Positions 44,137 to 56,052 of a stretch of DNA of 64,000 nucleotides are shown here, one piece after another (the stretch's first letter is position 1; the number at the start of each line of letters is the position of its first letter). The stretch covers positions 186,001 through 250,000 of the forward strand of contig CAJFRT010000002.1 in NCBI GenBank assembly GCA_904419525.1, in the 5' to 3' direction. This DNA comes from Candidatus Gallimonas merdae. GTDB lineage: Bacteria; Bacillota; Clostridia; Christensenellales; Borkfalkiaceae. The notes under the pieces are model-generated. The model saw nothing but the letters and a program-made list of their open reading frames with translations, was not told the DNA's origin and did not search any database. The position numbers and the translations under genes were made by a program.

Positions 44137-45225
44137 TTATTCCTCCGTGGACGGAGCCTCCGCGGCCGCTTCCAGATTGAGTTTTGCCGCCGCCGATTCG
44201 CTCTTGACGTCGATCTTCCAGCCCGTGAGGCGCGCTGCAAGGCGCGCGTTCTGACCGTCTCTTCCGATGGCGAGCGAAAGTTTGTCGTCGGGAACGACGG
44301 CAACGGCGGACTTTTCGCCCATCTGCGTGACGGAGAGCACCGTTGCAGGCGAGAGCGCCTTGGCGATGAATTCGAGCGGATTTTCGCTCCAGAGAATGAT
44401 ATCGATCTTTTCGCCGCCGAGCTCGGTGACGACTGCGTTGACGCGCGCGCCCTTGTTGCCGACGCATGCGCCAACTGCATCGATGCGCGGATCTTCGGAC
44501 GCGATCGCCATCTTGGTGCGGTGTCCCGGCTCGCGGGAGATGCCCTTGACGACGACGGTGCCCGCCTTGATCTCGGGGACTTCCTCTTCAAACAGGCGCT
44601 TGACAAGGCCGGGCGCCGCACGGGAGACGAGCACCTGCGCGTTTCTGCCGCCGCTCTTCACCCGCTTGACATAGACCTTGATACGGTCTCCCGCAAGATA
44701 TTTTTCGCCGGGGACCTGATCCTGCGGGAGCATCAGCCCCTCGATCTGGCCCTTCCCCAGCTCCACATACACGTTGCGCGCGTCCACTTTGCGCACGAGG
44801 CCGCTCATGAGCTCGCCCTCTTTGTCCGAAAATTCGGAGAGCGTGTTGTCGCGCTCCGTCTCGTGGATCTTCTGCAGAATGACCTGCTTCGCCGTCTGCG
44901 CCGCGATGCGCGTGAAATCCTTGGGCGTGAACTCATCGGTCAGGACGTCGCCCGGCTTCGCGCTCTTTTTGATCTCCTGCGCCTCTTCCAGAGAGATCTC
45001 GCCGTCGGCAAGCTCTTCCGCATCGGAGACGGTGCGTTTGAGGAAAAAGCGGATCGTTCCCTTTTCGGGATTGAGCTTGACCTCAACATTGCCCCCCTCG
45101 CCGATATACTGCTTTTTATAGGCGGAAGCAAGCGCCGTCTCGAGCGCTTCGACGAACGTCTCTTCGCTGATGCCCTTTTCGCGCTCAAGGTCGGCGAGCG
45201 CCGCAAAGAAATCCTTGTTGATCAT
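44137..45225 (-). CDS. nusA: Transcription termination/antitermination protein NusA
   Basis: ALADLEREKGISEETFVEALETALASAYKKQY; VKVYVKRVKSGGRNAQVLVSRAAPGLVKRLFEEEVPEI; DPRIDAVGACVGNKGARVNAVVTELGGEKIDIILW. Confidence 0.97.
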   Translation of the reverse strand: MINKDFFAALADLEREKGISEETFVEALETALASAYKKQYIGEGGNVEVKLNPEKGTIRFFLKRTVSDAEELADGEISLEEAQEIKKSAKPGDVLTDEFTPKDFTRIAAQTAKQVILQKIHETERDNTLSEFSDKEGELMSGLVRKVDARNVYVELGKGQIEGLMLPQDQVPGEKYLAGDRIKVYVKRVKSGGRNAQVLVSRAAPGLVKRLFEEEVPEIKAGTVVVKGISREPGHRTKMAIASEDPRIDAVGACVGNKGARVNAVVTELGGEKIDIILWSENPLEFIAKALSPATVLSVTQMGEKSAVAVVPDDKLSLAIGRDGQNARLAARLTGWKIDVKSESAAAKLNLEAAAEAPSTEE

Positions 45226-45263: not shown

Positions 45264-45719
45264 TTACACTTCAATGAGCAGACAGACCTTGGAAGTCTTG
45301 TCAAACGGGATTCGCAGTTCGCCCTTTGCCGTTTGCAGAACGACAGCGCCGTCTTCAAACGCGGAGAGCGTCCCTTCGTGATACTTCGCCCCCGCAAAGG
45401 GCGCGTAGAGATGCACTTCGATTTTTTCGCCGATATGCCGCGCAAAATCGCGCTCCGTTTTGAAAGGACGGTCAAGCCCCGGCGAAGAACAGTTCAGCGT
45501 ATAGGCCGCGCCGTAAGTCGGATCGAGTTCGTCCAGCGCGACGTCTGCCGCACGGTGGAACTTTTCGCAAAGGTTCAGATCGACGCCGCCGGGCGCGTCG
45601 ATGACCAGCGTCAGAGAGCGGTCGCGATTGTTCCAGACCGCCTCCACAAGCTCCGCCCCCACCGACTGCGCGACGGGCGCAAGGTACTCTTCCACTTCCC
45701 GCATAGGTTTTACATTCAT
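45264..45719 (-). CDS. rimP: Ribosome maturation factor RimP
   Basis: MNVKPMREVEEYLAPVAQSVGAELVEAVWNNRDRSLTLVIDAPGGVDLNLCEKFHRAADVALDE; YTLNCSSPGLDRPFKTERDFARHIGEKIEVHLY. Confidence 0.95.
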   Translation of the reverse strand: MNVKPMREVEEYLAPVAQSVGAELVEAVWNNRDRSLTLVIDAPGGVDLNLCEKFHRAADVALDELDPTYGAAYTLNCSSPGLDRPFKTERDFARHIGEKIEVHLYAPFAGAKYHEGTLSAFEDGAVVLQTAKGELRIPFDKTSKVCLLIEV

Positions 45720-45791
45720 AAACAATCTCCGACAAGTCCGCACAATGGCGACAATGAGATGCGCCGCATATCCTGCCTGAATACAAAGAAT

Positions 45792-45894: not shown

Positions 45895-47406
45895 TTAATC
45901 GAGCTTCTGCGCGAGCCGCGCCAGTTCGAGGAACACTTTGGCCGTGACGAACGCATCGTCGAAAGCGCGGTGGTGGTGAAAGGTAAAGCCGAAATAGTCC
46001 GCAACGTCGTTCAGACGGTTGTGCGGCAGCCGGAGGGTACGCTGCGACATCACCATCGTATCGTATTGTTTCTGATCAAAGAGAAACCCCTCTTTTTCGC
46101 CGTAATAGCGGATAAACTTGTAGTCGAACTGCACGTTGTGCCCCACGAGCGAGCACCCCGCCGCAAACTTGTAAAAGTCCGCAAGCACGTCCCCCACTTC
46201 GGGCGCGCCGACGAGCATATCGTCGGTGATCCCCGTAATTTTGACGATCTCTTCTGAAAGCCGCACGGGGCAGGCGACGAATGTGGAGAACTTTTCGACG
46301 ATGTTCCCGCCGCGGATCTTGACCGCGCCCAACTCGATGATGCGGTCCATGGAACCCGTCGCGGGCGTGTTGTTGAGTCCCGTCGTCTCAAGGTCGAACA
46401 CGACGAAGTCCTGTTTGCAGACGACTTCGGGAAGCGGCTTTCCGGTGAACAGGGTGCCCTGCACAAAATCGGTGACCGGCGCGGGGAACACGGTGCGGTA
46501 CTGCGCGGGAACGGGGCGCGAGGGGCGCTCCTCCGGTACGAATCCATCCGGCGCATGCCCCAGATCGATCTGCTTGGCGCGGAAGGACAGCCCGCCGTTA
46601 TACAGCTCGTGGTCACCCGTCAGACAAACGCTGTCCCCCTGTCTGAGGCCGCGCACCTTTTCCACCGTCGCCTTTTTGGAAAAATAGGAACATCTGAGCT
46701 GGCCCGTGGCGTCGGCGATCGTCAGCGAAAAATAGGGTTTTCCGGTCTTGGTCGCACGCTCCTCGATGTACGAGATCGCGCCGCACACGGTAATGTTTTG
46801 CATTTCCTTGACGAGATCGGCCAGGTAGACGGCAACGGACGGCTTGGCTCCGTCGATGGGCTCATATCCCTCGATCGCAAAGACGCGCGGCGCGGCAACG
46901 TACTCCGCTTCCGGCGGCGCGGCGTGTTCGATCTCGCCGCGCTCCTTTTCGACAAAACGGACTTCGCCGAACCACGTCCCGCAGAACGTGCGCGAAAGTT
47001 CCGCACTCACGGCGTCCAGGATCCCGTCGCCGAGCATGCGCTCCCGCTCCAGCTGTCCGACCCCGATAAAGAACCTGCCGCCGCCCTCGTCCACGGCGAC
47101 GGCGATGTCGTCGGGGTCGACGAACGCCGCGACCGCAGGGAAACGGTTCTTCAGAATATCCGCGACCGCGCGGCGGATCCCCGCCTCGTCCGGCACCGAT
47201 TTGAGCGTGCGCACCTGCGCGGTAAATCCGGCGGGGACATACTTTTGCGAAACGCCGCGGGCATATTCGACGTCCTCGGGCGAATAAGTCACATCCGTCA
47301 CAAGAAAAAACGTCGCCGTCTTTCCGGCAACTTCGATCTTACGGAGCACGGCGCGCTTCAGCCCCGGGGCCTTCCGTATCTCTTCCAGGTATTGTTTGCT
47401 CTTCAT
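45895..47406 (-). CDS. PolC-like N-terminal + OB-fold + DEDDh 3'-5' exonuclease protein lacking PHP and polymerase domains (503 aa)
   Basis: MKSKQYLEEIRKAPGLKRAV; OB segment ITVCGAISYIEERATKTGKPYFSLTIADATGQLRCSYF; exonuclease FVVFDLETTGLN / LVGHNVQFDYKFIRYY / HHHRAFDDAFVTA; sits between ispG and rimP. Confidence 0.85.
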   Translation of the reverse strand: MKSKQYLEEIRKAPGLKRAVLRKIEVAGKTATFFLVTDVTYSPEDVEYARGVSQKYVPAGFTAQVRTLKSVPDEAGIRRAVADILKNRFPAVAAFVDPDDIAVAVDEGGGRFFIGVGQLERERMLGDGILDAVSAELSRTFCGTWFGEVRFVEKERGEIEHAAPPEAEYVAAPRVFAIEGYEPIDGAKPSVAVYLADLVKEMQNITVCGAISYIEERATKTGKPYFSLTIADATGQLRCSYFSKKATVEKVRGLRQGDSVCLTGDHELYNGGLSFRAKQIDLGHAPDGFVPEERPSRPVPAQYRTVFPAPVTDFVQGTLFTGKPLPEVVCKQDFVVFDLETTGLNNTPATGSMDRIIELGAVKIRGGNIVEKFSTFVACPVRLSEEIVKITGITDDMLVGAPEVGDVLADFYKFAAGCSLVGHNVQFDYKFIRYYGEKEGFLFDQKQYDTMVMSQRTLRLPHNRLNDVADYFGFTFHHHRAFDDAFVTAKVFLELARLAQKLD

Positions 47407-48440
47407 CCGATCAGTTCTCCGAGCCGCTCGAAAAAGACGCGCTCCGCGTCCTCCGTGTTCACGCGCTCGTCCGCTCTTCCTTTCTGCATGATAATACAAT
47501 ACTTTTCGCCGCCCGCAATGCCCAGGTCGCACCCGCGGGCTTCGCCGGGCCCGTTGACGACACAGCCCATGACGGCGACTTTGAGTTTCTTCTTCACCGT
47601 GCGCACGCGCGCTTCGACGCGCGCGGCGAGCCCCACGCAGTCATAGCGGCACCGGCCGCAGGTGGGACAGGCGACGACCTCCACATAGTCGTGTTCCAGT
47701 CCGCAGGCGCGCAGAATGGCATGCCCGGCGTACACCTCTTCAACGGGATCCGCCGAGAGGGAGACACGGATGGTTTCGCCGATCCCCGCGAGCAGCAGGG
47801 CGCCGATCCCGACGCTGCTCTTGACGATGCCCGCATCTTTGGTCCCCGCCTCGGTCACGCCGAGATGGAGCGGATAGTCGCACTGCCTGCGCAGGAACGT
47901 GTATGCTTCCACCGTGAGCGGAACATCGGAGGCCTTGACGGAGATGACGATATCGCCGACCCCGTGCCGTTCCAGCACGGCGACGTTTCCGAGCGCGCTC
48001 CCGACGAGGGCTTCAGCGCTTCTTCCGTACCGCGCAAGATGTTCCTTTTCGATGCTTCCCGTGTTTGCGCCCACCCGCACGGGGATCCCGTGCGCCTTCA
48101 CGCAGTCCGCGACATATGCGATCTCCCGGTCGCCGCCGATGTTTCCGGGGTTGATGCGCAGTTTGTCCGCGCCGTTTTCCACGGCAAGCACGGCAAGTTT
48201 CGCCGAAAAATGGACGTCCGCCACGATGGGCACGTCCGTCCGCGCGCGGATCGCGCGGAGCGCGCGCGCGTCCTCTTCGTCAGCAACGGCCACCCGCACG
48301 ATGTCGCATCCCGCATTGCGCAGGGAAAGAATTTGAGCGACGCTGGATTCCACGTCGCTCGTCTTAGTTGTTGTCATACTCTGCACGGGGATCTCCCCTC
48401 CGCCGAGGAGCACCCCGCCGACGCGGACGTTCCGGATCAT
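47403..48440 (-). CDS. ispG: 4-hydroxy-3-methylbut-2-en-1-yl diphosphate synthase
   Basis: PVQSMTTTKTSDVESSVAQI; IVADVHFSAKLAVLA; LRINPGNIGGDREI; ACPTCGRCRYDCVGL; VMGCVVNGPGEARGCDLGIAGG. Confidence 0.97.
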   Translation of the reverse strand: MIRNVRVGGVLLGGGEIPVQSMTTTKTSDVESSVAQILSLRNAGCDIVRVAVADEEDARALRAIRARTDVPIVADVHFSAKLAVLAVENGADKLRINPGNIGGDREIAYVADCVKAHGIPVRVGANTGSIEKEHLARYGRSAEALVGSALGNVAVLERHGVGDIVISVKASDVPLTVEAYTFLRRQCDYPLHLGVTEAGTKDAGIVKSSVGIGALLLAGIGETIRVSLSADPVEEVYAGHAILRACGLEHDYVEVVACPTCGRCRYDCVGLAARVEARVRTVKKKLKVAVMGCVVNGPGEARGCDLGIAGGEKYCIIMQKGRADERVNTEDAERVFFERLGELIG

Positions 48441-53018: not shown

Positions 53019-53686
53019 GTTCCGATGACGGAAAGGATCTTCTGATAGTTCTCTGCGAAAAGTCCCGTGTATTCCGCAGGGCGCTCCGCGCGGCAGAGAA
53101 TGAACGCAACGTTCAGCCTCTCGGCACATACCATGTCCGAAGTCAGGCTGTCGCCGACATACACGGCACGTTCAGGCGCAAACTCCGGAATGTGTTGTTT
53201 CACATAGTCCACATACCCCTGCGACGGCTTGGTGTGGCCGATCTCATCCGAAATGAACAGATCGGTAAAATAAGAGGACAGTCCGGCCGCCGCAATGCGT
53301 CTGCGCTGCAGCGCCCTGGCCCCGTTGGTCACGGCGTATGTCCTTCCGCGCGCACACAACGTCCGCAGAAAGTCGGCCGCGCCCTCTATGGCATATGCCC
53401 GCTGCGGCATTCCCGCAAAAAAGTCCTGCGATAGAGCGCGCGCATCTCCCTCTGCGCCCAGCTGGGCAAGCAGGATCTCAAACCGCTCGACCACCAGCCG
53501 TTCACGCGTCGTCTCGCCCCGTTCGAGCGCCTTCCAGAGCCCGTCGTTGATGACGTGAAAACGCGCCGCCGTGTCCGCGTCCGCCGCGATCCCGTGGGCG
53601 CGGAGGGTGGCGACGACCTGTTCCCGCTCCGCACGATGAAAGTCCAGCAGAGTGTCGTCCACGTCAAGCAAAAAGATGTCCTTCAC
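53012..53686 (-). CDS. YjjG-family HAD hydrolase (noncanonical pyrimidine nucleotidase-like)
   Basis: IFLLDVDDTLLDFHRAEREQV; YAVTNGARALQRRRI; VYVGDSLTSDMVCAERL. Confidence 0.9.
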   Translation of the reverse strand: MKDIFLLDVDDTLLDFHRAEREQVVATLRAHGIAADADTAARFHVINDGLWKALERGETTRERLVVERFEILLAQLGAEGDARALSQDFFAGMPQRAYAIEGAADFLRTLCARGRTYAVTNGARALQRRRIAAAGLSSYFTDLFISDEIGHTKPSQGYVDYVKQHIPEFAPERAVYVGDSLTSDMVCAERLNVAFILCRAERPAEYTGLFAENYQKILSVIGTL

Positions 53687-56052
53687 GATTCTTCCTCCAC
53701 GATGGCGAGCTCGCGCAGCGCGCGCGTGCAGGCGATATATTTTTCGTTTTCCGTCATGTCCCTGTCATAGACGGCAACGGCGGAAAACTCCAGCCCCTTG
53801 CTTTCAAACACGCTCATGACATTGACCGACGTGCGGCTGAACGAGCCGTCCGCAGCGAGCCTCCGGAATCCCCTGCGCTCGAACAGCGGAAGGTATTCCT
53901 CCCTGGCGATCACCGCTTTCAGTCCCTGTTTTTCGCGGAAGAATGCGGCGAGCTGACGCATGCGCAGCCGTTCCACGGGCGCGCCCTCCAGTCCGATGGG
54001 CTTCATGTCCGCGTCGAGCACTTCGGAGACATATGCCACGATCTCATTGGTGTTGCGGTAGTTCTGGTCGAGGGTATAGATGTTTTCGCCGAGGGGCTGC
54101 CAGCTCTTCATGCCGCGCCAGGGCGTGATGTTCTGTTTGAGGTCGCCGAACACATTGAACGCGGCGCCCGAATGAATGGTTTTCAGCAGCGCGTACTCTC
54201 CCTCCGAAATATCCTGCCCTTCGTCCACAAACACAAGTCCGTAGCGGGGAAGCAGCCGCCGCCCGGCCGCCGTCAGCACGCTGCACAGCGCGTAGCCGTC
54301 CGAGGCATACACCCCCTTCATATCGTACTTGGCCTTGTCCTTTCTGACCGTCTCGCGGTACAACCAGCGCGCAATGTCCGCACCGTTTGTGCATTTTCCG
54401 AGTTCCGCGCAGCTGTGCGACTGCCGCAGGACCTGGAAAAATTCGCCGAACAGCTCCAGTCCCGAAGCCATTTCCGCGATCACGGAACGGATCTTCCGCG
54501 TCTCTTCCAGAAGCTCCTCGCGCCGGGCAATGCGGTCGGCATAGGTGAGCACCTCCACCGTTCCGCGCTTCTGACGGTACCGCCTGAGATCGGCGATCTC
54601 CTTGTCGATCGTCTCCGTCAGGGAGACGAGATCCTCGTCCGCACGGCGGAAGATCTTCTCCCCGCCCGCCGCGATCATGTGGGCGCAGTGATAGAATTCG
54701 CAGAACTGACGGAAGAAGTAATCGGGCGTGCGCTCCGGTTCGTCCAGCACGAAGCGAAGGAAATCCTCCGCCTGCACAAAGGCGTTCATCATGGTGCGGA
54801 AAGGCTTTGTGAAATAGAATCCGCCCTCTTTGTTCTCCTTCAGCTCCCCGAGCACGGCGCGGCGCACGCGCACGGACGCATTCTTGACGCGCACGAACTT
54901 TTCCTGCCGCTTTTTGCAGTCGTCGAGGACCGTCCGCGAAACTTCGCGGCACTCCTCGCCCGCGAACAGGCCGTAAATTTCCCGATAGAGTTTGCCGACC
55001 CGTGCGGCGGTCGTTTCGGTAAAGCGCGGCGAATACAGATAGGAGAGATATTCCGCCTTTTCCCGCTCGGAGACAAGATGCGATTTCAGGTCGATCCCTT
55101 CGCCCGAGAGCGCACGGAAATAATACTCCGTCAGCGTCGTCGTCCGCACCCGTTCGAGCTCCAGCATCTGCGAAAGTTCATCGATAAACGCGTTGAAGCT
55201 GGCGGAGGGCGTGATGACGAGCACGTCCCCGGGGCGGAGGCTCTCATTGTTGTACATGAGATAGCTCAGCCGGTGCAGCATGATCATCGTCTTGCCGCTG
55301 CCTGCGCACCCCTGCAGGACGAAACTTTCCCGTTCGGGGCGGGTGATGATATCGAACTGCTTTTCCTGAATGGTGCGGATAATGTCGCGCACCTTCACAT
55401 CGTCCTTGCGGCTGCGGATAATGTCGCGCAGATAGGGATCGAACAAGATCTCTTCGTCCCGTCCCCCGATCTCCTCCGGCGTGAGCACATCCCCCACGGA
55501 CAGATACTCGTTGCGGAAATCCAGAAGTTTTCCGTTTCTGACCGAAAGCGCCCTGCGGAGCACTGTCCGGTATTCATATTCATTGATCGTAAACGTCACG
55601 CGGCTCTTCTGGTAATACCGGACCGCGAGCGGCGCGCGCCAGTCCACGATCTCGAGATTGACGTCGCCGTGTTTGCCGATGTAGTAGCTGTTATATCCCT
55701 CCCGGTCGTCCACGACGTCCATGCGGGCGAAATAGGGCTCTGAAAAGAAGGGCCGGTATTCGTCGATCTTTTTGCGGAGCGATGCGATCTCGGCGTTCTT
55801 TTCCTGAATGGCGCGGAAATCCTCCGCGCCGTAATTTTCGCTGGCACGAATTTGGGCAATCTCCTCTTTCGCGGCGGCGATCCGCCTGCGGTAGCGCAGG
55901 ATATGGACCAGCTTGAGCATTCTGAGCACCGCGCCGAGGTGTTCCTCCTCATAGGCGCGCTGCGCGTCCGCGTCGAGGAGCGCAAGATACCACGCCTTGT
56001 CGGCGTCGATCCTGGGGCAGAGCAATTCTTTGCAAGTCTTGCGCTTGTCCAT
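53683..56052 (-). CDS. helD: HelD-like UvrD/Rep-family ATPase (RNA polymerase recycling factor)
   Basis: N-terminal coiled-coil; GDVNLEIVDWRAPLAVRYYQ; FVLQGCAGSGKTMIMLHRLSYLMYN; LVFVDEGQDISEGEYALL. Confidence 0.88.
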   Translation of the reverse strand: MDKRKTCKELLCPRIDADKAWYLALLDADAQRAYEEEHLGAVLRMLKLVHILRYRRRIAAAKEEIAQIRASENYGAEDFRAIQEKNAEIASLRKKIDEYRPFFSEPYFARMDVVDDREGYNSYYIGKHGDVNLEIVDWRAPLAVRYYQKSRVTFTINEYEYRTVLRRALSVRNGKLLDFRNEYLSVGDVLTPEEIGGRDEEILFDPYLRDIIRSRKDDVKVRDIIRTIQEKQFDIITRPERESFVLQGCAGSGKTMIMLHRLSYLMYNNESLRPGDVLVITPSASFNAFIDELSQMLELERVRTTTLTEYYFRALSGEGIDLKSHLVSEREKAEYLSYLYSPRFTETTAARVGKLYREIYGLFAGEECREVSRTVLDDCKKRQEKFVRVKNASVRVRRAVLGELKENKEGGFYFTKPFRTMMNAFVQAEDFLRFVLDEPERTPDYFFRQFCEFYHCAHMIAAGGEKIFRRADEDLVSLTETIDKEIADLRRYRQKRGTVEVLTYADRIARREELLEETRKIRSVIAEMASGLELFGEFFQVLRQSHSCAELGKCTNGADIARWLYRETVRKDKAKYDMKGVYASDGYALCSVLTAAGRRLLPRYGLVFVDEGQDISEGEYALLKTIHSGAAFNVFGDLKQNITPWRGMKSWQPLGENIYTLDQNYRNTNEIVAYVSEVLDADMKPIGLEGAPVERLRMRQLAAFFREKQGLKAVIAREEYLPLFERRGFRRLAADGSFSRTSVNVMSVFESKGLEFSAVAVYDRDMTENEKYIACTRALRELAIVEEES

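Follow-up and report, generated by a model that had tools for sequence, protein, structure and literature searches.

In-place reduction of the DNA polymerase PolC to an N-terminal region, an OB fold and an exonuclease in a PolC-less clade of Clostridia, with a proposed role as helper of DnaE

Domain order, gene neighbourhood and phylogeny support the reading of a 503-aa protein of Candidatus Gallimonas merdae (order Christensenellales) as a DNA polymerase PolC that has been reduced in place, at its own locus, and the analysis suggests that the large PolC-less clade of gut-type Clostridia to which this organism belongs copies its chromosome with DnaE alone and has reused the old polymerase as a helper. 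The gene lies in a stretch of 64,000 nucleotides of contig CAJFRT010000002.1, referred to below as the window.

The reading frame, on the minus strand at positions 45895-47406, comprises 503 codons and a stop with zero internal stops, and its ATG shares 4 bases with the stop of ispG. Downstream follow rimP, nusA, rnpM and infB; the gap to rimP, given as a 175-bp leader in the initial annotation, measures 151 nt with the GTG start as listed. Comparison with a near relative (L003) gives 62, 37 and 206 differences at codon positions 1, 2 and 3 respectively and, as the differences are mostly at third positions and homologues stand at the corresponding locus of dozens of genomes, this is a conserved gene and not a chance reading frame. 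The features of the locus and of the protein are as follows.

45895..47406, minus strand: reduced polC gene (NTD - OB - linker - DEDDh exonuclease), 503 aa; ORF reading, Pfam, profile alignment
47403..48440, minus strand: ispG (gcpE), upstream neighbour, 4-nt overlap with reduced polC
45264..45743, minus strand: rimP, downstream neighbour of reduced polC
44137..45225, minus strand: nusA, past rimP
46942..47406, minus strand: N-terminal region (residues 1-155), a pair of KH-like subdomains equivalent to PolC NI/NII; AlphaFold2, fold search, hhalign
46555..46806, minus strand: OB fold, residues 201-284; Pfam PF01336, AlphaFold2
46411..46554, minus strand: linker, residues 285-332, at the place of the first PHP half of PolC; profile alignment, AlphaFold2
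46447..46461, minus strand: QGTLF, residues 316-320, clamp-binding-type peptide QxxLF; motif conservation
45907..46410, minus strand: DEDDh 3'-5' exonuclease domain, residues 333-500; Pfam, active-site residues, tree, fold match

Elsewhere in the window, positions 53683-56052 (minus strand) encode a UvrD-like helicase, a relative of the RNA polymerase recycling motor HelD that scores far under the curated cut-off.

In the 503-aa protein, Pfam assigns residues 335-492 to the exonuclease family RNase_T (112 bits) and 205-280 to an OB fold (34 bits), and finds neither a PHP nor a polymerase domain. With the complete DEDDh active site (D338, E340, D428, H479, D484) and the neighbouring genes, this bears out the initial annotation, which had described an open reading frame between ispG and rimP with an OB-like segment and a DEDDh exonuclease, devoid of PHP and polymerase sequence. 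The top NCBIfam matches are PolC equivalogs aligned over their exonuclease part only (147 and 138 bits, where the cut-offs are 873 and 1043), the nearest solved structure is the exonuclease of Thermotoga PolC and a fold search with the complete model has E. faecium PolC as its top hit. The AlphaFold2 models are confident, with a pLDDT of 89 over the full protein and 91 over residues 1-160, and in them the N-terminal region forms two beta-beta-alpha-beta units; its best folds include tandem-KH NusA proteins, returned by the fold search in place of a direct match to tau. This fold agrees with the published prediction for the PolC N-terminus of two KH-like subdomains related to tau domain V (PMC3919608, PMC12926913). 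The PHP domain split by an exonuclease is not seen: a linker of about 48 residues replaces PHP-N, and the stop codon comes directly after the exonuclease.

Descent from PolC was examined by profile comparison, phylogeny and synteny. A profile of 24 short relatives aligned over its whole length with a profile built from 16 full PolCs found in this order (E 5e-73), matching the N-terminal region, the OB fold and the exonuclease and skipping the PHP part, and the N-terminal region alone matched the PolC N-termini of wider Clostridia (hhalign, Prob 97, E 3e-11). In the exonuclease phylogeny, an analysis that the initial annotation had called for, short and PolC exonucleases stand together and a branch with 100% SH-aLRT separates them from most solo DnaQ-like proteins, inner branches having weak support; the exonuclease thus sides with PolC and the gene is not an orthologue of dnaQ. 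The order ispG-short gene-rimP-nusA in the short loci corresponds to ispG-polC-rimP in the full ones, as far as the fetched stretches extend. Since PHP-N is gone between the OB fold and the exonuclease, a simple 3' truncation is insufficient; the skipped PHP part and the stop after the exonuclease imply two deletions, one of PHP-N and one of everything past the exonuclease. Together with the loss of the polymerase core across the clade, synteny, profiles and tree uphold the earlier proposal that polC was reduced at its own locus to accessory and proofreading modules.

The polymerase content of the genomes was then considered. A genome-wide search for PolC and DnaE catalytic domains, also proposed with the initial annotation, returned a single C-family core in the organism's own genome (92.6% complete), that of a 1194-aa DnaE whose PHP proofreading site is intact, and PolC above cut-off was found in none of the same-genus genomes searched. 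Across the order (395 genomes, completeness at least 90%), full PolC exceeds the cut-off in 118 genomes; of the 395, the PolC-bearing families account for 126 and 15 families that have no PolC at all for 269. A profile of the N-terminal and OB parts, the exonuclease being left out, detects the reduced protein in 266 of these 269 genomes at E <=1e-27 (the exceptions are G319, G326 and G424) and matches PolC-bearing genomes weakly. Neither this genome nor the families lacking PolC yielded a second C-family core; these families have one C-family polymerase, of DnaE type and with its catalytic residues, as in a DnaE1-only system. Conversely, no separate short gene was present in the 10 PolC genomes checked, so that the two are mutually exclusive where tested. 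Loss of PolC is unusual, as 223 of 243 genomes in a sample of the class carry full PolC above cut-off. In trees of RpoB and DnaE, built from reading frames picked by similarity, the 27 PolC-less genomes included form a single clade (100/100 support) and in both its sister is family f13, where full PolC is still present; one reduction in situ is the simplest account of this topology, and such an event likely took place in the ancestor of the clade. We regard the origin and the distribution of the reduced PolC as established to the extent that sequence permits.

Some apparent exceptions were set aside. Family f16 appeared to lack both PolC and the short gene, and the profile search revealed a short protein with a decayed exonuclease there and likewise in genus g78 of f32. 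PolC seems absent from G098, G422, G527 and G636; ispG is missing too, so assembly gaps look likely. At the other extreme, genomes of family f28 (for example G087 and G111), of 0.8-0.9 Mb and rated 100% complete, retain the reduced PolC gene, which thus survives strong genome reduction.

The linker before the exonuclease, on which the initial annotation was silent, holds a peptide of the form QxxLF, the beta-clamp-type binding consensus. The linker is otherwise variable, and among 35 divergent sequences Q is kept in 89% and F in 80%. In a set of 43 sequences below 50% identity, which includes one PolC cut by a contig end (L102), the strict motif Q..[LM]F occurs in 23 linkers, against a mean of 0.36 and a maximum of 3 in 1000 shufflings, and the 20,296 residues outside the linker contain it just twice; a relaxed motif is missing in 11 of the 43 linkers, that of the cut PolC among them. 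The stretch has no secondary structure in the AlphaFold2 model, so that the short protein shows a conserved QxxLF in an exposed segment, as expected of a clamp-type peptide, and from this we infer that it may bind the beta clamp DnaN. Full PolCs of the same order carry a Q.SLF motif at their C-terminus, which makes the linker peptide of the short protein either new or moved.

From these observations we propose, as a probable if far from certain reading, that in-place reduction turned PolC into a replication protein without polymerase activity that acts as a clamp-bound, epsilon-like helper of DnaE. In the ancestor of the clade DnaE1 would have become the sole replicative polymerase, and PolC would have shed its PHP and polymerase parts, the KH-like pair, the OB fold and the exonuclease staying behind. 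The KH-like pair and the OB fold may hold contacts with the replisome and with single-stranded DNA, the linker QxxLF would dock on the beta clamp also used by DnaE, and the exonuclease could clear mispaired 3' ends in trans, in the manner of E. coli epsilon, alongside proofreading by the DnaE PHP domain. We infer contact with DnaE or with the clamp loader, and proofreading in the cell, from the same features; the mechanism with most support is that of a clamp-anchored helper and proofreader of DnaE1, and it rests on the anatomy of the protein.

The initial annotation had proposed that the exonuclease may act in trans with a DnaE or with a PolC catalytic part, and it needs one correction, as the exonuclease is not constant. 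All DEDDh residues are present in the window protein and in most relatives, and the active site is gone, with the N-terminal and OB parts kept, in at least three sublineages (f19 genera g19 and g50, f16, and f32 g78), while f19 g89 and f32 g32 have it intact. The sublineages with a dead exonuclease mostly retain a QxxLF-like peptide. A short protein without recognisable OB fold that keeps the N-terminus and the exonuclease was observed in G089 (L068) and, given these losses of either module, the N-terminus is the sole universal one. DnaE keeps its catalytic aspartates, usually has a QxSLF-type motif and, wherever its N-terminus was read, shows a complete PHP motif HHDHEHCDH; as this site is seemingly active everywhere, there is no obvious need for a second proofreader, and loss of the exonuclease in sublineages fits a scaffold with a dispensable nuclease and a DnaE PHP domain able to proofread. 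What stays constant resembles a scaffold anchored at the fork, to which a proofreading module is optional. It is conceivable, but we think it unlikely, that the protein is a scaffold first, with the N-terminal pair, the OB fold and the clamp peptide holding DnaE, clamp or loader together (compare the non-catalytic role of epsilon) and its exonuclease being secondary or replaceable. The decayed active sites, the intact DnaE motif and the unrelated family f63, which retains a PolC with every active site lost, speak for this, and the intact DEDDh of most members and the fact that the most conserved columns of the short protein are those of the exonuclease, a sign that nuclease activity is under selection in most lineages, speak against it.

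Clamp peptides are found in many repair proteins, and an OB fold joined to a DEDDh domain would be plausible in a clamp-recruited nuclease devoted to repair or Okazaki-fragment work with no DnaE partnership during synthesis; PolC ancestry, the polC locus and retention exactly where the PolC polymerase was lost nevertheless favour a replisome role, and we hold this possibility to be improbable. An unrelated DnaQ-like gene, or a PolC N-terminus fused to a foreign exonuclease, might account for the missing PHP between OB fold and exonuclease and for some weak branches in the exonuclease tree, but is very improbable, as the top family and PDB matches are PolC exonucleases, the tree unites these with the short ones apart from most solo ones, and the full-length and N-terminal profile matches rule out an unrelated gene. 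A split PolC with its catalytic half elsewhere, a frameshift or an assembly error, which the initial annotation had entertained together with a full polC elsewhere, has next to no probability, and nothing was found in its favour; the split is excluded in practice, because no second C-family core beside DnaE was found in this genome or across the PolC-less families, and the same short gene recurs at the same locus in independent assemblies. A functionless decaying remnant, as exonuclease decay in some sublineages might suggest, is hardly credible for a gene that shows the third-position bias of purifying selection, is present in 266 of 269 genomes of 15 families and keeps its frame in genomes of 0.8-0.9 Mb.

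PolC has lost activities in other lineages as well. In family f63 (G506, L305:1561-4824) a PolC homologue of 1088 aa, in which PHP, exonuclease and palm motifs are all lost, lies in the order ispG, PolC homologue, rimP, nusA; this pseudoenzyme is whole in one genome only, its 5' part being found in a second (L306, 63% identity), and f63 is a separate Clostridia lineage that retains a catalytically dead PolC at its own locus. In genus g13 of the sister family f13 (L044, L046) a full-length PolC has intact polymerase aspartates and has lost DEDDh (SRTFE, SRSTE), while in a second f13 genus the PolC exonuclease still matches well; a separate short gene that could offset this decay was searched for and none was found. 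In family f11 (G451, L308) rimP follows ispG after about 220 nt and polC is gone, by clean loss or through contamination, and the ispG locus of f97 (G660, L309) has neither polC nor a remnant, possibly as another independent PolC-less Clostridia lineage. The cases of f63, f13 and f11 indicate that PolC activities were lost separately and repeatedly, the protein being sometimes retained. The whole scenario, in which a clade of Clostridia passed from a PolC plus DnaE1 replisome to a DnaE1-only one, turned its former polymerase into a clamp-anchored, epsilon-like accessory and proofreading factor and was paralleled by a similar dead PolC arising separately in another lineage, we judge to be slightly better than an even proposition.

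For the passage between PolC plus DnaE and DnaE-only replication, loss of PolC had only been proposed (PMC3919608), and here the change is caught on one branch with its remnant in place and a sister family that keeps full PolC. The reduced protein is also a natural case in which the N-terminal, OB and exonuclease modules, about whose roles little is known, stand apart from the polymerase of PolC, and it adds a candidate to the proofreading subunits of DnaE1. Ibezapolstat acts on PolC (PMC11963600, PMC12592400), described as its target in Bacillota (PMC11963600); the polymerase target of such inhibitors should be missing in the PolC-less clade, which would bear on their microbiome effects.

The typical system of Clostridia consists of PolC and DnaE1, some Clostridia having DnaE1 only (PMC3919608; 2026 survey PMC12926913), and loss of PolC has been proposed as a route to DnaE1-only replication (PMC3919608). 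The clade resembles these DnaE1-only Clostridia in that DnaE1 is the sole C-family replicative polymerase; a leftover PolC protein is not described in either survey (PMC3919608, PMC12926913), and no published description of a polymerase-less or truncated PolC was found in the open-access literature. The 2014 survey counted only proteins with an intact polymerase active-site region (PMC3919608), and surveys demanding an intact polymerase core would miss a reduced PolC. Variants of PolC without exonuclease have been described in Clostridia and in Negativicutes (Timinskas et al. 2014, PMC3919608), and these likewise represent the loss of one PolC activity in Clostridia, in the opposite direction, as there the polymerase is retained. 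Full-length PolC shares with the short protein the locus ispG-polC-rimP-nusA and the succession of KH-like pair, OB fold and DEDDh exonuclease, whereas the short protein lacks the PHP domain and polymerase core, has about 500 residues against 1,400 and carries its QxxLF before the exonuclease, the clamp-type motif of same-order PolC being C-terminal. The epsilon subunit of E. coli Pol III (DnaQ) is similarly a separate DEDDh exonuclease beside DnaE, and its clamp-type peptide too lies outside the nuclease core, but the short protein is not its orthologue, since its exonuclease derives from PolC, it has N-terminal and OB domains in addition, and its peptide precedes the nuclease where that of epsilon follows it.
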